Assembly: GCF_014639315.1 (NCBI RefSeq)
Contig: NZ_BMFY01000001.1
Span: 248,001-312,000 of the forward strand
Reading direction: 5' to 3'
Length of the DNA stretch: 64,000 nucleotides
Source of the DNA: Sediminivirga luteola
GTDB taxonomy: Bacteria; Actinomycetota; Actinomycetes; Actinomycetales; Brevibacteriaceae
A program made the translations under genes and the position numbers. Below, in pieces: positions 20,570 to 30,066 of this stretch. Each line of letters begins with the position of its first letter. The stretch's first letter is position 1. The notes under the pieces are model-generated. The model saw only the letters and a list, made by a program, of their open reading frames with translations, was not told where the DNA came from and did no database searches.

Positions 20570-21580
20570 TCAGCGCTGGCGGATCGGGGCGGCCGAGGAA
20601 CGCAGCAGCAGATCCGGTGCCACCTGGAGCAGCGGCTGGGGCCCGCGCCGGGCTGCTCCGCCGGACAGCGGCCCGGAGGCATCCCGCCCCGCCAGCGCGG
20701 TGAGGGCATCGATCGCCTGGGTGGCCACCTCGGTCCAGTCGAAGGTCACCTGCGAGACCGCCGGGGAGAGCACTTCCGGTTCCGGCACCTCCCCGATGGC
20801 GAGGAGGGAGAGCTGGTCGGGCATGCTCAGACCCGCCAGCTGAGCGGACTGCATCGCGCCGAGCGTCAGCGCCGGCCCGCAGGAGACGATCGCGGTGCAG
20901 CCTGCGGCAAGGAGCGCATCGGCGGCCTGCCTGCCTGCGGGGACACCCGGCCCGGCCTGCTCCACGGGAGCCTGGGCGCGGGTGGCCTCGATGTGCAGCC
21001 GCCGGGCGGCGCTGCGCCGGAACGCCGCAGCCCGCGGTCCGGCGTCCGGACCGAGCGCCACGGCCATGCCGATCCGCCGATGCCCCAGCTGGCTGAGATG
21101 ACGCACCGCCGTGTCGATCCCGGCGTCGAAGTCCAGCAGGATGCTGCCCGGCCCGGCAGGAGGCCGCACCGCGATGCGCAGCACCGGCACGCCGGCGGCT
21201 TCCAGGGCAGCCCCGGCGGTCTTTCCCTCCTCGCCGAGCACGAGCGCCCCGAGCAGGTCGAAATCCCGGAAGCGGCCGGGAGCCGGACGTTCCTCGGCGG
21301 TCACCGTGACGCCCACGAAGCCCGCCTCGAACAGGTGCAGGAACAGCTCACGCCGCAGCGGTTTCCACGCGTCCAGATCGAAGTACCGCACCCGGGGCAC
21401 CACCACCGCGATCATCGGAGCCCCGCCGGCATGCGCGCCGGCCAGGCCCAGCAGCCGCAGGGCCGACTGCACCGTCTCCGCCGCCTCGGCAGAGACGTTC
21501 TCCTTGCCCCGCAGCACCCGGGAGACGGTGGAGACCGACAGGCCCGTGCGCCGGGCCAGCTCCTGCAGGGTGACGGGCAT
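20570..21580 (-). CDS. LacI-family transcriptional regulator (downstream copy)
   Basis: A 336-residue protein. The N-terminal HTH reads TLQELARRTGLSVSTVSRVL, and the hinge is short and lacks the usual minor-groove-binding Tyr/Leu pattern (RLLGLAGAHAGG). A periplasmic-binding-like domain follows for a small sugar-type ligand. It starts at the base where the stop of another LacI-type gene begins, so the two are cotranscribed. It may regulate the sugar-related operon that runs the other way at 22798. Confidence 0.88.
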   Translation of the reverse strand: MPVTLQELARRTGLSVSTVSRVLRGKENVSAEAAETVQSALRLLGLAGAHAGGAPMIAVVVPRVRYFDLDAWKPLRRELFLHLFEAGFVGVTVTAEERPAPGRFRDFDLLGALVLGEEGKTAGAALEAAGVPVLRIAVRPPAGPGSILLDFDAGIDTAVRHLSQLGHRRIGMAVALGPDAGPRAAAFRRSAARRLHIEATRAQAPVEQAGPGVPAGRQAADALLAAGCTAIVSCGPALTLGAMQSAQLAGLSMPDQLSLLAIGEVPEPEVLSPAVSQVTFDWTEVATQAIDALTALAGRDASGPLSGGAARRGPQPLLQVAPDLLLRSSAAPIRQR

Positions 21581-22605
21581 CAGCGCACCCTCGCGGTCGA
21601 ATCGCGGGACACCAGGGCGGGGACGAAGCTCGGCGGCACCGTCAGCCGGCGTGCCTGCTCGCCCTCCTCCAGGACCGACTGCAGGCCCAGCAGCAGCGCA
21701 TCGGCGATCTCCTGCTCCCGGAACCGCAGCGCGGTCACCGCCGGCTGCAGGAAGGGCAGCGTGGCGCTGTCACCTAGGGCGATCACCGAAAGATCGCGCG
21801 GGACCATCATCCGGTTCTCCCGCAGGGCCTGGTAGACGCCGTGCAACTGGCGGGCGCTCTGCACGATCACGGCGGTGCAGGTGGCGTCGAGCAGGCGCCT
21901 GGCCGCGGCCGCGCCTCCGGAGACGGTCTTGGGCACCCGCGCCGTCCAGGCGCCGAAGTCGCCGCGTACCGCCCGGGCGGGGTGGTGCGCGGCGAACTCC
22001 ACCTCCAGGCTCTCGGCCAGATAACCACGGTCATTGCAGATCAACCCGATCCTGCGGTGCCCCAGCCCGGTGAGGTGGTCGAACGCCGCCCGTAGCCCGG
22101 CGGCGATGTCGATGCCGGCCGCCACGACGTCATGCATGGCCCCCGGGCCACCGGGCGCCTCCACGATCCGCTCGTCGGCGGATTTGGCCAGCCGCAGCAC
22201 CGGAACGCGGTCGATGCCGGTGAGCAAGCCCTCGGAGACGGTCAGGGGGGTGAAGATGGGCGCCACCATGGCCGCGGCGCCGGCCCGCACGGCCGTGGCC
22301 ACCGCGGTGCCGTCCCCGAACAGCGCGGGGGTCGTCACGAGCATGCCCCGTGCCTCGACCCAGTCCGCCACGCGCTGGCACACCGCACGCTGCCATTCCT
22401 CGGGATCGTAGGGGGCGCAGACGCCGATGAGCCGGGCGGAGAGCGGGTCCAGCAGGGTGGAGCGCCGGTAACCGAGCCGATCGGCGGCCTCCCGTACGCG
22501 GTCGGCGGTGGGACCGGCGACGTTCCCGCGGCGGGCGAAGACGCGGGAGACGGTGGCGGGGGAGACCCCGGCCTCCCGCGCGACGTCCTCCACGCTCACC
22601 CTCAT
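21580..22605 (-). CDS. LacI-family transcriptional regulator (upstream copy)
   Basis: A 341-residue regulator starting MRVSVEDVAREAGVSPATVS, an HTH typical of LacI/GalR, then hinge RVREAADRLGYRRSTL and a ligand-binding domain with repeated GHRRIGLI-type motifs. The ATG at 22605 is fixed by the HTH; longer frames add no domain. It is divergent from the ABC-ATPase/DUF4032/SDR operon across a 192-bp spacer, so that operon is the likely target. Two LacI regulators in one operon is unusual and could allow heterodimers or a two-signal response. Confidence 0.88.
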   Translation of the reverse strand: MRVSVEDVAREAGVSPATVSRVFARRGNVAGPTADRVREAADRLGYRRSTLLDPLSARLIGVCAPYDPEEWQRAVCQRVADWVEARGMLVTTPALFGDGTAVATAVRAGAAAMVAPIFTPLTVSEGLLTGIDRVPVLRLAKSADERIVEAPGGPGAMHDVVAAGIDIAAGLRAAFDHLTGLGHRRIGLICNDRGYLAESLEVEFAAHHPARAVRGDFGAWTARVPKTVSGGAAAARRLLDATCTAVIVQSARQLHGVYQALRENRMMVPRDLSVIALGDSATLPFLQPAVTALRFREQEIADALLLGLQSVLEEGEQARRLTVPPSFVPALVSRDSTARVR

Positions 22606-22797: not shown

Positions 22798-23478
22798 ATG
22801 GCGTCGGTGTCGTTCGTCGATGTGCAGCACTCCTACCCGCACGCCATCAGGCCCACCCTGGTGGACATCGACTGGACGATCCGAGCCGGCGAGTTCGCCG
22901 TCCTCTACGGGCCGCCCGGCAGCGGGAAGTCCACTTTGCTGCGTGTGCTCGCGGGTCTGGAGGCCCCCACCGGCGGCGCCGTGTTCCGCGGCGACCTTGA
23001 CATCACCCGGATGCCCGCCCCGGACCGCGATATCGTGATGGCGCTGGACAGCTACGCCCTCTACCCGCACCTGAGCGTCGCGGACAATCTTGGTTTCGTG
23101 CTGCGGCTGGCCGGCCTGAGCTCCGAGGAGATCGAGCAGCGGGTCGCCCAGGCGGCCGAACAGCTCGAGCTCACCGAGGTCCTCGCCTCCGCGCCGGCGG
23201 CACTGACCAGTGCCCAGCGGCACCGCGTGGCGCTCGGCCGGGCCCTGGTCCGCCGCCCCAGCGTGCTCCTGCTGGACGAGCCGCTGAACCAGCTCGGCGA
23301 GGAAGACCACGAGCAGGTGCGCGAGCAGATCCGCACGCTCCAGGCGGCGTTGCGGATCACCACCATCTACGCCACCTCCTCCCAGGACGATGCGCAGGCG
23401 CTCAGCGGCGGCACGATGGCCGTCCTGGACAAAGGCCGGCTGACCGTCCCCGTCCGGGAGGGCACGGCGGCCCCATGA
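22798..23478 (+). CDS. ABC-type ATPase with degenerate motifs
   Basis: A 226-residue protein related to the MalK/UgpC sugar-ABC ATPases but without their C-terminal TOBE domain. Walker A is intact (GPPGSGKST, 38-46), as is Walker B with Glu (LLLDEP, Asp160/Glu161). Other parts of the cycle are altered: the Q-loop Gln is Asp84 in MALDSYALYPH, LSGGQ reads LTSAQ (136-140), the D-loop reads NQLG, and the switch His is Ser194 in ATSSQDDA. No permease or binding protein is nearby. ATG 22798 lies 9 nt after GGAGGGGG; a GTG at 22792 is too close. It overlaps the DUF4032 gene by 4 nt. Its role is unknown. Confidence 0.8.
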   Translation: MASVSFVDVQHSYPHAIRPTLVDIDWTIRAGEFAVLYGPPGSGKSTLLRVLAGLEAPTGGAVFRGDLDITRMPAPDRDIVMALDSYALYPHLSVADNLGFVLRLAGLSSEEIEQRVAQAAEQLELTEVLASAPAALTSAQRHRVALGRALVRRPSVLLLDEPLNQLGEEDHEQVREQIRTLQAALRITTIYATSSQDDAQALSGGTMAVLDKGRLTVPVREGTAAP

Positions 23479-24779
23479 GCGCCGCGCCGCTCAGGACACC
23501 CGGAGCGGGCGGGCTCTCCATCACCGCGGCCGCTCACGCCGAGGACCTGGCCGAGCTGCCCTGGGATCAGCCGCTCGCCGAATGGCCGGTGCAGAAGCTC
23601 GTCGGGCTGCCACGAGGCATCTCCCGCCACGTGGTCCGCTTCGTGGAGATCTCCGGGGCCATCGTCGCGGTCAAAGAGACCCGCGAGCATCTGGCGGTGC
23701 GCGAGTACTACATGCTCAAGGACCTCGTCCGCCTCGACGTGCCCTGCGTGCGGCCGCTGGGATTCGTGCGCGGACGGCGGGACCGCGACGGCAATCCGCT
23801 CGACTGCGCCCTGCTGACGACGCACCTGCGGTTCTCCCTGCCCTACCGGGCGCTGTTCACCAGGTCCATGGACTCCGGGACCGCGGCCCGGCTGGTGGAC
23901 GCGCTGGCGGTCCTGCTGGTGCGCCTGCACCTGGTCGGCTTCTTCTGGGGCGATGTGTCCCTCTCCAACACCCTTTTCACCCGCGATGCCGAAGCGTTCC
24001 AGGCCTTCCTGGTGGACGCCGAGACCGGCGAACTGCATGAGGAACTCACCGACGGGCAGCGCGAGCACGACCTCACCCTCGCCCACACCAATATCGCCGG
24101 CGAGTTCATGGACCTGCAGGCCGGCGGGTTGATCGACCCGCACGTCGACCCGCTGGGGGTCTCGGAGCGGCTGCGCGAGCGGTACACCGAACTGTGGCAG
24201 GAGATCACGCGCACGGAGACATTCTCCACCGCGGAGCGCTGGCGCGTGGACGAACGGGTCCGGCGGTTGAACGAACTGGGCTTCGACGTCGGCGAGATCG
24301 CGGTGACCACCGACATCGACGGCGTCACCGCCCATCTGGAGCCGAAGGTCGTCGCGCCCGGGCATCATGTCCGCCGGCTCAAACGGCTCACCGGGGTGGA
24401 CGCCAAGGAGAATCAGGCCCGCCGGCTGCTGAACGACCTGGACCAGTACCGCACGTCCCTGGAGTACGAGGGCCTGAGCGAGGAAGAAGCCGCCGCCCGC
24501 TGGAAGCGGGAGGTCTTCGACGTGGTGCTCGGCGCGGTGCCGGCGGATCTGAGCGGCAAGCTGGAGCCGGCGCAGATCTTCCACGAGTTCCTGGACCATC
24601 GCTGGCTGCGCTCGGAAGCGGAGCAACGCGACGTTCCATTGCAGGAGGCCACCGCCTCCTACATCGCCGAGGTCCTCCGGCACCGCCGGGACGAGGCCTC
24701 GTACATCCGCGCCGTCGACGAGCAGGACTCGGACACGGCCGGTTTCTATCCGCCCGACCCACAAGGAGAGCATCCATGA
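23475..24779 (+). CDS. DUF4032 protein with kinase-like N-terminal domain
   Basis: A 434-residue cytoplasmic protein. The first about 200 residues resemble the lipopolysaccharide-kinase/InaA type of protein-kinase-like fold: Lys67 in IVAVKET, Glu77 in REYYML, catalytic-loop Asp160 and Asn165 in FFWGDVSLSNTLF, and metal Asp181 in FLVDAETGE. These residues suggest an active phosphotransferase. The rest matches the actinobacterial DUF4032 domain. The phosphoacceptor is unknown. It is coupled by 4-nt overlaps to the ABC ATPase before it and the SDR after it. Confidence 0.8.
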   Translation: MSAAPLRTPGAGGLSITAAAHAEDLAELPWDQPLAEWPVQKLVGLPRGISRHVVRFVEISGAIVAVKETREHLAVREYYMLKDLVRLDVPCVRPLGFVRGRRDRDGNPLDCALLTTHLRFSLPYRALFTRSMDSGTAARLVDALAVLLVRLHLVGFFWGDVSLSNTLFTRDAEAFQAFLVDAETGELHEELTDGQREHDLTLAHTNIAGEFMDLQAGGLIDPHVDPLGVSERLRERYTELWQEITRTETFSTAERWRVDERVRRLNELGFDVGEIAVTTDIDGVTAHLEPKVVAPGHHVRRLKRLTGVDAKENQARRLLNDLDQYRTSLEYEGLSEEEAAARWKREVFDVVLGAVPADLSGKLEPAQIFHEFLDHRWLRSEAEQRDVPLQEATASYIAEVLRHRRDEASYIRAVDEQDSDTAGFYPPDPQGEHP

Positions 24780-25576
24780 CCGCACCGGCCGACTACCCCA
24801 ACATCCGCACCCTGCTGAGCCTGGAGGGCAAGCAGGCCGTCGTCATCGGCGCCGCCTCCGGCCTGGGTCAGGCCTCCGCGATCGGCCTGGCGGACTGCGG
24901 TGCCGAGGTCATCTGCGCGGATCTGAACGCCGATGGCGCGCGTGCCACCGCGGAGGTGATCGCCGGGCGCGGCGGCCAGGCGACCTCGCTCGGCTCGGAT
25001 CTGACCAGCACCGCCGATGCGGATGCGCTCGCCGAGCAGTACGCCGGGGCGGACATCCTGGTGGTGACGCCGGGCTTCAACGTCCGCAAGCGGCTGCTGG
25101 AGACCACGGACGAGGAGTTCGACCGGGTCATCGACATCAACCTCAAAGGCACCTACCGCCTGATGCGCTCCTTCGGCCGGAAGATGGCCGAGCGCGGCCG
25201 CGGCTCCATCATCACCTTCGCCAGCTTCCGTGCCCAGGTGGTCGAGCCGGGCCAGAGCATCTACGCCGCCGCGAAGGCCGGCGTGGTGCAGCTGACCAAG
25301 ACCCTCGCCAGCGAGCTGGGCACCACGGGGGTGCGGGTGAACGCCATCCTGCCGGGCACCTTCGCCACCGCGCTGACCACGCAGATCAAGAACGATCCGG
25401 AGTGGTGGACCGCCTACGAGACGAAGTCCGCTCTCAAGCGGTGGGCCTCCCCGCACGAGATCGCCGGCGCGGTGGCGTTCCTCGCCTCCGACGCCGCCAG
25501 CTATGTCACCGGCACCACGCAGCTCGTCGACGGCGGCTGGACGGCGCACGACGGGCGGTTCGAGCCCTCGCTGTGA
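24776..25576 (+). CDS. Short-chain dehydrogenase/reductase
   Basis: A 266-residue classical SDR oxidoreductase, NAD(P)-dependent. Cofactor loop GAASGLG lies at 25-31, and catalytic Ser150, Tyr163 and Lys167 sit in FAS...SIYAAAK. The usual NNAG strand end is replaced by TPGFN. It resembles gluconate-5-dehydrogenase and sugar-alcohol dehydrogenases, so the substrate may be a polyol or sugar acid. The ATG at 24776 follows AAGGAG and overlaps DUF4032. It is the last gene before a strong terminator. Confidence 0.87.
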   Translation: MTAPADYPNIRTLLSLEGKQAVVIGAASGLGQASAIGLADCGAEVICADLNADGARATAEVIAGRGGQATSLGSDLTSTADADALAEQYAGADILVVTPGFNVRKRLLETTDEEFDRVIDINLKGTYRLMRSFGRKMAERGRGSIITFASFRAQVVEPGQSIYAAAKAGVVQLTKTLASELGTTGVRVNAILPGTFATALTTQIKNDPEWWTAYETKSALKRWASPHEIAGAVAFLASDAASYVTGTTQLVDGGWTAHDGRFEPSL

Positions 25577-25798: not shown

Positions 25799-28243
25799 TC
25801 AGCTGCGGTTGGCGCTGCGCCGGAGCCGCAGGCACTCGACCAGCACCGCCGTGACGGCGTGCGGATCGGAGATGCGTCCGGCCGCCAGGGTGTGCCCCGG
25901 CCCGACCTTGAGGCCCAGATCCGGACCCGGCCCGGCCTGCCTCAGCCTGGCGAAGGCGTCCTCATCGGTGACGTCGTCGCCGATGTACAGGATGGCGTCC
26001 GCTCCGGTGGCCGCCCGCAGCGCGGTGATGGCGTGCCCCTTCGTGCTGTGACGCACCGCGAACTCGCGGACCTCGTGCCCGCGGGTGTACCTCAGCCGGG
26101 GGTGGTCCTCCGCGATCTCCTGCATCAGGTCGTAGACCCTGTCGGCGAACTCGGGCTCCAGTCCGCGGGTGTGCACGCTACGGCCCAGCGCCTTCTCCTC
26201 CACCCGGAACTGGCCGTAGTCGCCGAGCTGCTGCGCGGCACGGTCGAGCGCGGCGTCGAGGTCGGCCAGCTGTTCCCGTTCCTCCGTGCTCGGGTGCAGC
26301 TCCGCCAGGGGAGACCCGGCACGGCTCGTCGTGGACGGCGCCGCCGCACCCAGGCCGGACAGATCCAGCTGGGCGCCGTGGCTGCCGGCGAACAGCGCCC
26401 CCGGGGGCGCATCGACGCGGGAGACGAGGTCCGGCAGCTCGCGGCCGGACACATAGGCGATGAGCACATCGTCCAGGGCGGCCAGCCGGTGCACGGTCTC
26501 GACCGTCTCCGGCAGCGGCGCAGAGGTGGCGGGGTCGTCGACCAGGGGTGCCAGCACGCCGTCGAAGTCCAGCGCGATCAGCAGGCGCCGGGCGCTGCAC
26601 ACCGCGGAGAGCCGCTCGACGACATCGGCCGGGAGAGCGCTCTCCTGCGTGACGCGGCTGGGCCGCTGCGTCTCCGGCAGCACCGAATGCGTGCGCTCCC
26701 GCTGCTCGCCGACCATCTGCAGCCGGTCCAGGAAAGTGCTGGCCCATTGCAGGACGTCGTCGTGGCGCACCTTGGACCGCAGCCGCCGCATCCGCCGGCC
26801 GGCCTCCTCCGGGGTCATGTGGACCGCCTGCGTGATGGCGTTCTTCAGGCCCGCGATGTCATGGGGGTTGACCAGCAGCGCCTGCCGGAGTTCATCGGCG
26901 GCGCCGGTGAACTCGCTGAGCACGAGTACGCCGTCCTCCTCGACGCGGCAGGCGACGTATTCCTTGGCCACCAGGTTCATCCCGTCGCGCAGCGCGGTCA
27001 CCAGCATCACGTCGGCGGCGAGGTAGAACGCCGCCATCTCCTCCCGGGGGAAGGACTGGTGCAGGTAGTGCACGGCAGCCTTGCCCAGCGCGGAGTGGTC
27101 GCCGTTGATCCGCCCGACCGCCAGCTCCACATCGCGACGGATCTGCTTGTAGTAGTCCAGCCGCTCGCGTGAGGGCGTGGCGATCTGGATGAACGTGGTG
27201 CTCTCGGTGGAGAGGCGGCCGTCCTCCAGCAGCTCCTCGTAGGCCTTCAGCCGGTGCCGGATGCCCTTGGTGTAGTCCATCCGGTCGACGCCCAGGATGA
27301 GGGTGCGCGGATTGCCGACCTCCTCGCGGATCTCCTCCGCGCGCTTGCGGATGCGCTCGTCCCTGGCCAGGGCGTCCATCGCCCCGGCGTCGATGGAGAT
27401 CGGGAAGGAGCCGGTCTCGCACAGGTGCTCGGGGCTCTGCTGGGAGGCGGGCACCCGCACGACGGAGTTCCGGGCCAGGTAGCCGAGCGTGCGCCGCACC
27501 GCGCGGCGGAAGTTGGCGGTGTCCGAGGGACGCTGGAAGCCGACCAGGTCCGCGCCCAGGAGGCCGATGAGGATCCGCCGGCGCCAGGGCAGCTGGGCGA
27601 AGATCTCGTAGGGAGGGAAGGGGATGTGGTTGAAGAACCCGATCTTCACGTCCGGGCGCAGCTCGCGCAGGATGCCGGGCACCAGCTGCAGCTGGTAGTC
27701 GTGCACCCATACCAGTGCGCCGGGTGCGGCGGACGCGGCCGCCGCACGGGCGAAACGGGTATTGACCCGCACATACGCGTCCCACCATTTGCGGTGGAAC
27801 TCCGGGGGGACGATCACATCGTGGTACAGCGGCCACAGGGTCGCGTTGGAGAAGCCCTCGTAGTAGGAGTACACGTCATCGGTCGAGAGCCGCACCGGTA
27901 CCAGGTGCATGTCATCCAGGTCGAAGGGCTCGATCTCCTCGTCGGGTGCGCCCGTCCAGCCGATCCACGCCCCGGAGCGGCGCTTCATCACGGGCGCCAG
28001 GCCGGTCACGAGGCCGCCGGGGGACTGCCGCCACTCCGGCCCCTGCGGCCCCTGCGCGCGGTCCACCGGGAGCCGGTTGGCCACCACCACGAAGTCGTAC
28101 GAGTCGTTCCCGCCGGAGGCGCCGGCGGCACCGGGATCATCGGCGGCGTGAGGGACGCTGGGAGGCCTGTTCTCGGAGCCAGGGACGGAGGGTCGGGAAG
28201 TGTGTGAATCGTCCGTGCTGAGGGCATTCGTGTGCGAGTTCAC
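25799..28243 (-). CDS. otsA-otsB: Bifunctional trehalose-6-phosphate synthase/phosphatase
   Basis: A fusion of both steps of trehalose synthesis, 814 residues. Residues of about 50-530 form an OtsA GT20 glycosyltransferase ([56 protein letters not shown]) that joins UDP-glucose and glucose 6-phosphate. About 560-814 is an OtsB HAD phosphatase ([39 protein letters not shown]) that releases trehalose. The two enzymes are usually separate in bacteria, and the fusion is more like the plant/fungal and some actinobacterial arrangement. It is divergent from the kinase gene across 59 bp. The product serves as an osmotic and desiccation protectant. Confidence 0.94.
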
Positions 28244-28302
28244 TGCATCCTCTTCGTCTCAAGTGGTCGGAGAGAGTCTATCGGTTGGGTACGGTAGAGA
28301 GG

Positions 28303-30066
28303 ATGTCAGGGTCAGGTGCCAGAGAGATCGGCGGCTACCGCCTTGTCGAGGAACTCGGCACGGGCGGTATGGGTGCTGTCCATCTGGGCGTGAGCCCGGA
28401 GGGCGAGCACGTCGCCATCAAGATCCTGCACCCGCATATCGCCTCAGACCAGGCGGCGCGCCAGCGGCTGGCGCGTGAAGTGCGGACCCTGCGCCGGATC
28501 CGGCATCCGCGCGTGGCGGAGGTCCTCGACGCGGAACTGGACGCCCCGGCGCCGTTCATCGTCACCCAGTTCGTGGACGGTCAGACGCTCTCGAAGGACG
28601 TCGCGGAGAACGGCCCGTTCGCGGAGGACGAACTGGTGCACTTCGGGCACGGCCTGCTCGATGCGCTGCGCGCCGTGCATGCCGCGGGAGTGGTGCACCG
28701 CGATCTCAAGCCGGCCAATGTCATGATCATGGATGGTGAGCCGATGGTGATCGACTTCGGCATCGCCCAGGCCGCCGATGAGGTCAAGGTCACCGCGACC
28801 GGGCTGGTGATGGGCACGCCTGGCTACCTGAGCCCCGAGATCGCCGAGGGCGAGCGTGCCACCGAGGCCACCGACTGGTGGGGCTGGGGTGCCACGATGG
28901 CATTCGCCGCCAGCGGGACCAATCCCTTCGGCGGCGGCCCGCTGGAGGCGATCCTCGGACGGGTGGCGCGCGGCAAGGCGAATCTGGAGGGCGTGCCGCA
29001 GCGGTTCGTCCCGCTGATCGAGGCCTGCTTGAGCCCTGCACCGCAGGATCGGCCCGATGGCGATGCCATCCTGGGCGCTCTGGTCGACATCGAGTCCGGC
29101 CGCTATCCGCGCCTGCCCGGCGTCGCCACGCCGGGACGCGCCGCCCTCGGCGCCGAGCCCCCGCGCACCGCGGTGATGCCGGTGCCGCCGGCACCCCAGC
29201 CGCAACCGTTCGCGCCGCTGCAGGGCGTGCCCCGGGCGGAGCACCCGCAGTGGAACGCCGGCTACGCGCCGCCGGCGCAGCACCAGCCGCCGCCCCGGCA
29301 CCAGCTGGCCGGTCAGCAGCAGGGCCAGTACCCGCCGGCTCCCGCGATGAACGAGCGGCGGCCGGTCCAGGCCCAGCGCACCGGGTACGGCCCTCTGGGC
29401 CTGGACCAGCCCTCCGCCGCCGAGCAGGGGCAGCTCTACCGCGAGCCGTATCACGCGCCGGTGCCGCCGGCTCCGGCTCCTGTCAGCGGCAGCGTGCTGG
29501 CACTGCTGGCGCTCGTCCTGTTCTCGGTGCTGGCAGCACCGCTGGGCCCGTTCGTCATGCTCGCCCTGGCCTATGTCTGGTCGGTGCTGGCCCGCACCGT
29601 CGGCCGGCTGGCTCGGCGGCAGCGGCTGCGGCAGTACGAGGCAGGACCGCAGTCGGGCTGGTCCGCCGCCGCGGCCGCCCCGGGCGCCTTCGCTCTTTCC
29701 CTGTTCACCGCGTTCTTCAGTCATATCCTGCCGCTCATCGCGGGCCTGGCCGCCGCGGTGCTGATCCGGCTGGATGCGCTCGGGGCCGTGCCGATCGGGT
29801 TCTCCGAGCAGTTCTCCATGTGGGGTGCCGCCGCGGTGTTCGCCCTGGTGTTCTGGTTCGGTCCGGGCAGCGGGAACCTGCGGCTCGGCTCGCGCCTGAT
29901 CGTCCGGCGCGTCGCGCCGCCGCCGTGGGGGCACATCATCGTTCCCATCGTGTTCGCCGTCCTGGGCTTGCTGGCGCTTTCCACGATCCTCGCCGGCGGC
30001 TCGACCACATGGTGGCCGTTCGGCTCTAACCCGTTCGATCTGGTGCCGCGCAACTGGGAACCGTGA
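28303..30066 (+). CDS. Membrane Ser/Thr protein kinase
   Basis: An STPK of 587 residues. The kinase domain is complete: GTGGMG (19-24), Lys40, HRDLKPAN with Asp134, DFG at 151-153 and GTPGYLSPE. A Pro/Gln-rich linker of about 130 residues follows, and then about four hydrophobic helices in the last 150 residues. Most actinobacterial STPKs have one membrane helix and outer sensor repeats (PASTA), so this multi-helix C terminus is atypical. ATG 28303 is preferred; a TTG at 28285 has a better ribosome site (GGAGAG at 28269-28274) and would add six residues. It shares an upstream region with the trehalose gene. Confidence 0.88.
   Translation: MSGSGAREIGGYRLVEELGTGGMGAVHLGVSPEGEHVAIKILHPHIASDQAARQRLAREVRTLRRIRHPRVAEVLDAELDAPAPFIVTQFVDGQTLSKDVAENGPFAEDELVHFGHGLLDALRAVHAAGVVHRDLKPANVMIMDGEPMVIDFGIAQAADEVKVTATGLVMGTPGYLSPEIAEGERATEATDWWGWGATMAFAASGTNPFGGGPLEAILGRVARGKANLEGVPQRFVPLIEACLSPAPQDRPDGDAILGALVDIESGRYPRLPGVATPGRAALGAEPPRTAVMPVPPAPQPQPFAPLQGVPRAEHPQWNAGYAPPAQHQPPPRHQLAGQQQGQYPPAPAMNERRPVQAQRTGYGPLGLDQPSAAEQGQLYREPYHAPVPPAPAPVSGSVLALLALVLFSVLAAPLGPFVMLALAYVWSVLARTVGRLARRQRLRQYEAGPQSGWSAAAAAPGAFALSLFTAFFSHILPLIAGLAAAVLIRLDALGAVPIGFSEQFSMWGAAAVFALVFWFGPGSGNLRLGSRLIVRRVAPPPWGHIIVPIVFAVLGLLALSTILAGGSTTWWPFGSNPFDLVPRNWEP

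Follow-up and report, generated by a model that had tools for sequence, protein, structure and literature searches.

A hydrolysis-motif-deficient MsiK-type ATPase beside a DUF4032 kinase-like protein in Sediminivirga luteola and its relatives

MalK of Escherichia coli is an importer ATPase with regulatory side jobs, a precedent for regulation by an importer ATPase, and the known regulatory contacts of MalK use its C-terminal domain. Other ATPases of this kind are shared: MsmX serves several importers (PMC7658222, PMC5730181), and MsiK is described in abstracts as a shared sugar-importer ATPase. Here we describe a three-gene operon in a 64,000-nucleotide stretch of the genome of Sediminivirga luteola (contig NZ_BMFY01000001.1, positions 248,001 to 312,000; hereafter the window), in which a gene for a truncated MsiK/MalK-type ATPase is followed by genes for a DUF4032 kinase-like protein and a short-chain dehydrogenase/reductase (SDR). 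The ATPase has lost its hydrolysis motifs, and we give about an even chance to the reading that it is an MsiK that no longer hydrolyses ATP but has been retained to bind nucleotide and partner the DUF4032 kinase. The loss of motifs, together with the preservation of the gene beside that of the kinase, suggests a second, unstudied job for an MsiK-type motor.

Motifs lost and kept in the ATPase

The operon comprises the following genes, with positions counted from the first letter of the window:
22798..23478, + strand: truncated MsiK/MalK-type ABC ATPase, 226 amino acids (aa), putative pseudo-ATPase (hydrolysis motifs lost, nucleotide-binding half kept); start ATG at 22798, stop at 23476-23478
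23475..24779, + strand: DUF4032 protein, 434 aa, with an N-terminal Kdo/WaaP-like kinase region and a C-terminal DUF4032 domain (residues 239-401); start at 23475, stop at 24777-24779
24776..25576, + strand: SDR (adh_short_C2), 266 aa, linked to the operon in its own family only; start at 24776, stop at 25574-25576

The window ATPase retains Walker A (GPPGSGKST) and Walker B (LLLDEP), but its Q-loop reads LDS instead of the FQN of canonical MsiK, its signature LTSAQ instead of LSGGQ, its D-loop NQLGE instead of SNLDA, and its switch ATSS instead of VTHD. A first-pass annotation of this DNA, which had described the Walker motifs as kept and the Q-loop Gln, LSGGQ, the D-loop Asp and the switch His as lost, was thus correct on each of these points, as it was in reporting that all three genes overlap by 4 nt in the window, where both junctions are ATGA overlaps. 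The overlap of the ATPase and kinase genes is not general, as in many Brevibacterium loci the ATPase stops tens of bases before the start of the DUF4032 match (55 nt in locus L266).

The protein is also short, since canonical ATPases of this type have about 356-396 aa. The canonical MsiK of a sister genus (genome G058) matched OB_MalK and TOBE_2, whereas no C-terminal regulatory-domain match was found in the window ATPase. The ABC_tran fold is clear from a match to PF00005 at 1.1e-27; the nearest NCBIfam models are UgpC and MalK, both far below cut-off. A structural model with a predicted local distance difference test score (pLDDT) of 88 has the MalK fold, and its Foldseek matches include E. 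coli MalK, at 46% identity. As the defining catalytic features of the importer family are missing, the label of sugar-importer ATPase would be inappropriate for the window ATPase.

The same losses recur in the 45 ATPases seen beside the kinase gene in the host and in Brevibacterium, which represent every family genome with such an ATPase (28 sequences first, 17 added later). The Q-loop Gln is replaced by Glu in 44 of them and by Asp in one, and in 45/45 the second signature Gly has become Leu, Ala or Thr, the D-loop Asp Val, Pro, Ala or Gly, and the switch His Ser, Ala, Arg, Thr, Lys or Glu. The check proposed with the first-pass annotation, whether the losses are conserved in homologues beside DUF4032, therefore came out in its favor within the family. 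Equally uniform is what remains: A-loop Tyr13, Walker B Asp160 and Glu161, and the docking segment YALYPH at 86-91 are invariant in all 45, and the Walker A Lys is retained in 44. It is Arg in one ATPase only (L014:753-1451). Among the 158 positions invariant in 29 canonical MsiK sequences, 28 degenerate sequences keep 60 and have lost 50.

The replacement of the Q-loop Gln by Glu or Asp appears to be a directed change, not random decay. The median ratio of nonsynonymous to synonymous substitution rates (dN/dS), calculated for 14 Brevibacterium loci with 90 pairs for each gene, was 0.122 for the ATPase, 0.128 for the kinase and 0.162 for the SDR, and the degenerate ATPase is evidently under purifying selection. 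All degenerate ATPases form one clade with a support of 100/99, within which the catalytic losses are ancient; it sits on long branches, and its position relative to the MsiK clade is unsure. The elements lost are predicted to be those that act across the dimer or couple to the permease cycle, and those kept to be a single nucleotide half-site and the groove for the permease helix.

The msiK slot and the kinase across relatives

In two sister genera (G058 and G059), the gene order is trehalose genes, a LacI pair, canonical MsiK, DUF4032 and SDR, with canonical MsiK in the slot at 100% and 86%, respectively. Brevibacterium keeps this order with the degenerate ATPase in the place of MsiK. In other families, a complete canonical MsiK lies beside DUF4032 in 35 of 37 stretches of 9-13 kb, and in 31 of those 35 it is directly upstream, on the same strand and within 600 nt. 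The same was seen in 24/28 further loci with 1.5 kb flanks and in 78 of 80 named loci, 72 of them within 400 nt, the two exceptions being Janibacter anophelis (none) and Brevibacterium renqingii (degenerate); the three locus sets overlap in part. LSGGQ was missing from 3/78 read-outs because the frames read were partial, and among the sampled loci outside the host family, which we take to be Brevibacteriaceae, no complete ATPase beside DUF4032 lacked it. Outside the order the link is weak: an MsiK-type ATPase was found within 2 kb in 3/20 stretches and about 5.5 kb off, on the other side of DUF4032, in one more, and three Streptomyces-sized genomes had none beside DUF4032.

These comparisons agree with the earlier proposal that the protein is a former transporter ATPase, which is 46% identical to E. 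coli MalK and occupies the slot that MsiK fills in two sister genera. They divide on another point, as normal ABC motifs in homologues beside DUF4032 had been named as grounds for giving up the first-pass interpretation: within the family the homologues are degenerate, in line with it, but at almost all loci outside the family they are normal. Since the motifs beside DUF4032 are normal outside the family, the degenerate form is most probably derived within a wider association of MsiK with DUF4032, one that the earlier annotation had not seen.

Within the family, we sampled 60 genomes, 57 of them from Brevibacterium, with the host belonging to a different genus. The kinase gene is present in 49, adjacent to the degenerate ATPase in 45, to a canonical MsiK in two, and to neither in two. 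The last two genomes, G010 (locus L015) and G020 (L016), carry the kinase and the SDR without the ATPase; there, the kinase gene has a LacI gene as its immediate neighbor, and the SDR is followed by a frame resembling an MFS transporter. Two reduced Brevibacterium genomes, G040 (L193) and G031 (L194), encode a kinase without the DUF4032 domain, in which the catalytic residues are kept, as is the degenerate ATPase beside it. No SDR was found in the stretches of these two genomes that were read. The SDR is present in 29/30 loci of the family, no SDR at more than 34% identity was found in the stretches from other families, and it is probably a later, family-specific addition.

The DUF4032 protein matches PF13224 over residues 239-401 (2.3e-64, over cut-off). 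The full set of kinase residues ascribed to it earlier stood up well: K67, E77, D160, N165 and D181 do not vary among 22 aligned members, nor within a set of 36. PF06293 (Kdo/WaaP) was matched by 18 of the 22 relatives, at best with 6.9e-9, and not by the window protein at E <= 1. Foldseek on a weak model (pLDDT 67) returned SelO/YdiU, WaaP (6dfl), IRAK4, RioK1 and APH, with template modelling (TM) scores of 0.18-0.28. The DUF4032 protein resembles an active Kdo/WaaP-type kinase. The more specific proposal of a nucleotide switch for a small-molecule kinase fared unevenly: the conserved losses, the lack of a near permease and the kinase-like residues favor it, but the small-molecule substrate and the switch role did not gain support. 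Alignment A2 lacks 9 of 30 kinase references (L014 and L145 have a stop in the named stretch, and seven were dropped untested), A3 covers 35 of the 80 named loci (L220 and L227 have stops in the named stretch, and the rest were omitted for size), and A4 covers 28 of 78 complete-start ATPases.

DUF4032 was found in 367/396 genomes of the order as against 77/396 across the phylum, and the controls Thermus composti, Deinobacterium chartae and Corynebacterium glutamicum gave matches. Sequence searches of the PDB with the kinase yielded weak, unrelated matches by phmmer and only HopBF1 by profile (E 0.15-0.19); viral contigs contained no confirmed relative, and a scan of plasmid records for more remote contexts gave five, all actinobacterial. 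A literature search for DUF4032 by name or by the accession PF13224 found no paper, and searches near the topic gave, judging by titles and abstracts, no account of a protein of this kind.

The genes that flank the operon are the following:
21580..22605, - strand: LacI-family regulator 2 (PF00356 + PF13377), divergent from the operon, in the same place in family loci
20570..21580, - strand: LacI-family regulator 1 (PF00356 + PF13377), downstream of regulator 2, in the same place in family loci
25799..28243, - strand: fused trehalose-6-phosphate synthase/phosphatase (GT20 + Trehalose_PPase), part of the ancestral neighborhood
28285..30066, + strand: Ser/Thr protein kinase (Pkinase), a neighbor of the trehalose gene in Brevibacterium too

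The trehalose gene of the host sits on the opposite side of the operon compared with the sister genera and Brevibacterium. The Ser/Thr kinase gene adjoins the trehalose synthase/phosphatase genes in all family loci read (L280, L281, L283 and L284), and the two trehalose enzymes are fused in the host and in L284. The 64-kb window contains no PF00528 permease, as the first-pass annotation had noted of this locus, and the closest one on the contig is 102 kb off.

Importer clients and the role of the pseudo-ATPase

Should the importers that have no ATPase of their own be lost, a shared ATPase would be left without a task. Counted at E <= 1e-20, MalG-like permeases number 3-67 (median 11) in 23 genomes whose slot is canonical and 0-4 (median 1) in the 45 whose slot is degenerate, with none detected in eight of the latter; three of 24 genomes (G777, G512 and G586) were excluded from this comparison, since none of them showed an MsiK next to DUF4032. 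The MalG-like permeases that lack an ATPase within 8 kb make up 9/14 in G058, 9/10 in G067 and 24/25 in G284, all with a normal slot, as against 0/3 in the host and 0/1 in Brevibacterium G026. This test took 101 of 141 ATPase matches (all of those of G067 and G284, 32 of 33 of G058, and a part of those of the host and G026); the missing G058 match is near no permease, and the partial lists can only make the host and G026 look worse. All 83 PF00528 matches in the host genome have an ATPase match within 4 kb, with 110 of 125 ATPase matches taken. In its 3.86 Mb, the host genome shows 125 matches to the ATPase query and 83 permeases of PF00528, but only a single sugar permease that is clearly MalG-like. 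A canonical MsiK-like ATPase (66-74% identity) is encoded elsewhere in many Brevibacterium genomes; in the two loci inspected it is near a solute-binding protein gene and in one of them also near a permease; the best canonical MsiK-like ATPase of the host is only 53% identical.

We consider it likely that the window protein is a non-transport pseudo-ATPase derived from MsiK, and somewhat more probable than its opposite that it is a working partner of the DUF4032 kinase, a partnership read from genome comparisons. That it acts as a nucleotide-gated switch of this kinase is put forward only tentatively. An ancestor would have lost the MsiK-dependent, ATPase-less importers, removing selection on hydrolysis, and a second role with the DUF4032 kinase, either already present in MsiK or acquired by it, would be what selection still maintains. 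The pseudo-ATPase may bind ATP or ADP in its single half-site without hydrolysis, contact the kinase, perhaps via the former coupling-helix groove, and set the activity or target of the kinase by nucleotide or sugar state; the LacI pair would turn the operon on upon a carbohydrate signal, and the SDR would perform a linked redox step.

The contact residues of MalK were sought in PMC7658222, PMC8603345, PMC5730181 and PMC3150292, the first two of which place the permease coupling-helix groove at F81-Y87. Since even genomes that have no MalG-like permease keep this groove, its ligand is probably a different one, and the kinase is the only partner conserved throughout. We infer that the pseudo-ATPase regulates the kinase as one of its subunits, binding nucleotide but not hydrolysing it. 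A broader version, doubtful at present, would have MsiK act order-wide both as importer ATPase and as regulatory subunit of the DUF4032 kinase, with both partners on the coupling-helix groove and the kinase as a general switch of carbohydrate uptake, so that Brevibacteriaceae would retain the regulatory job alone.

Several observations weigh against a regulatory partnership with the kinase. In G010 and G020 the kinase persists without the ATPase and so can do without it, and the replacement of the Walker A Lys by Arg in one of the 45 ATPases means that nucleotide binding is perhaps dispensable. None of the 11 kinase-less family genomes had a degenerate ATPase at E <= 1e-58, but this threshold missed the host's own ATPase, which weakens the absence. 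Brevibacterium genomes without DUF4032 are also poor in permeases (0-1 MalG-like), and the loss of clients is a family trait, not specific to the degenerate slot. G512 and G586 (L191 and L125), with no MsiK seen beside DUF4032, still have 10 and 11 MalG-like permeases; G777 (L192), also without it and outside the family, has 2. Moreover, the contrasts between genomes reflect essentially one evolutionary change, and their P values overstate the support, and the model of the DUF4032 protein is weak (pLDDT 67, predicted TM score 0.47).

The preserved groove could also be explained if the pseudo-ATPase docked on importer permeases via YALYPH and blocked them, as a dominant-negative brake set by the kinase. 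Tyr86 to Tyr89 of the groove are kept in 45/45 while the hydrolysis residues are lost, and permeases of the PF00528 type other than the MalG-like ones counted could be its targets; however, the first three groove positions are changed (L/F, E/D, S/N), and the eight degenerate-slot genomes without a MalG-like permease at E <= 1e-20 led us to demote this explanation, which we now hold to be quite unlikely. Very unlikely, in our judgment, is a working importer subunit that forms a heterodimer with a normal MalK-type ATPase and contributes one dead site, as in asymmetric ABC exporters. Walker A, Walker B and the catalytic Glu are kept, and exporters are known to form heterodimers in which one site is degenerate (PMC4046567, PMC12038006), but such heterodimers were not found described for MalK-type importers in the material at hand, there is no permease in the window, and 83/83 PF00528 matches of the host have an ATPase within 4 kb. 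Furthermore, the protein has lost its Q-loop, signature, D-loop and switch elements together, and the dimer-stabilising C-terminal domain is gone.

DUF4032 might instead be a sugar or metabolite kinase acting on a substrate imported with MsiK, with the ATPase as a chaperone or scaffold whose nucleotide is not informative. The Kdo/WaaP and APH families phosphorylate small molecules, 18/22 members match PF06293, the SDR, the LacI pair and the trehalose genes make up a metabolic neighborhood, and one ATPase is without the Walker A Lys, as would suit a scaffold. Nevertheless, a single imported substrate would not explain a general link with MsiK, which serves many sugars, and the retention of the A-loop Tyr and the Walker motifs argues for nucleotide binding, so that we regard this explanation as unlikely. 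That the gene is a functionless relic on its way out is scarcely credible: four motifs and one domain are lost and the gene is absent in G010 and G020, but the substitutions are uniform, the nucleotide site and the groove are found in 45/45, and the gene is retained in reduced genomes. The relic explanation was rejected on the dN/dS of about 0.12.

Comparison with known systems

The association with MsiK gives DUF4032 its first concrete context, which would be control of, or by, an ATPase that powers many sugar importers. If the regulatory partnership is correct, nature has supplied, in the degenerate family, a separation-of-function mutant that keeps what MsiK needs beyond transport, and a second role of shared importer ATPases becomes directly testable.

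The closest described proteins are MsiK, MsmX and MsmK, the shared CUT1 ATPases, with which the window ATPase has in common the fold, the slot beside DUF4032, the nucleotide half-site and the YALYPH segment; it is 47% identical to MsiK of a sister genus. Unlike them, it is without the Q-loop Gln, LSGGQ, the D-loop Asp, the switch His and the C-terminal regulatory domain, has no near permease, and is found in a genome with few or no client importers. It differs from E. coli MalK in the absence of the C-terminal domain, and MalK hydrolyses ATP. The DUF4032 protein resembles the Kdo/WaaP kinases (PF06293), and more remotely APH, RIO and SelO, in its catalytic residues, but it has an additional C-terminal DUF4032 domain; to our knowledge, bacteria of this order are without lipopolysaccharide. 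UvrA, SMC and ABC-F proteins use the ABC fold outside plain transport, and the window ATPase is like these, and like exporters with a degenerate site, in having this fold beyond plain transport or with a dead site. As far as they are described, those systems keep at least one working composite site, whereas the window ATPase has lost every trans-acting element and is of importer origin.

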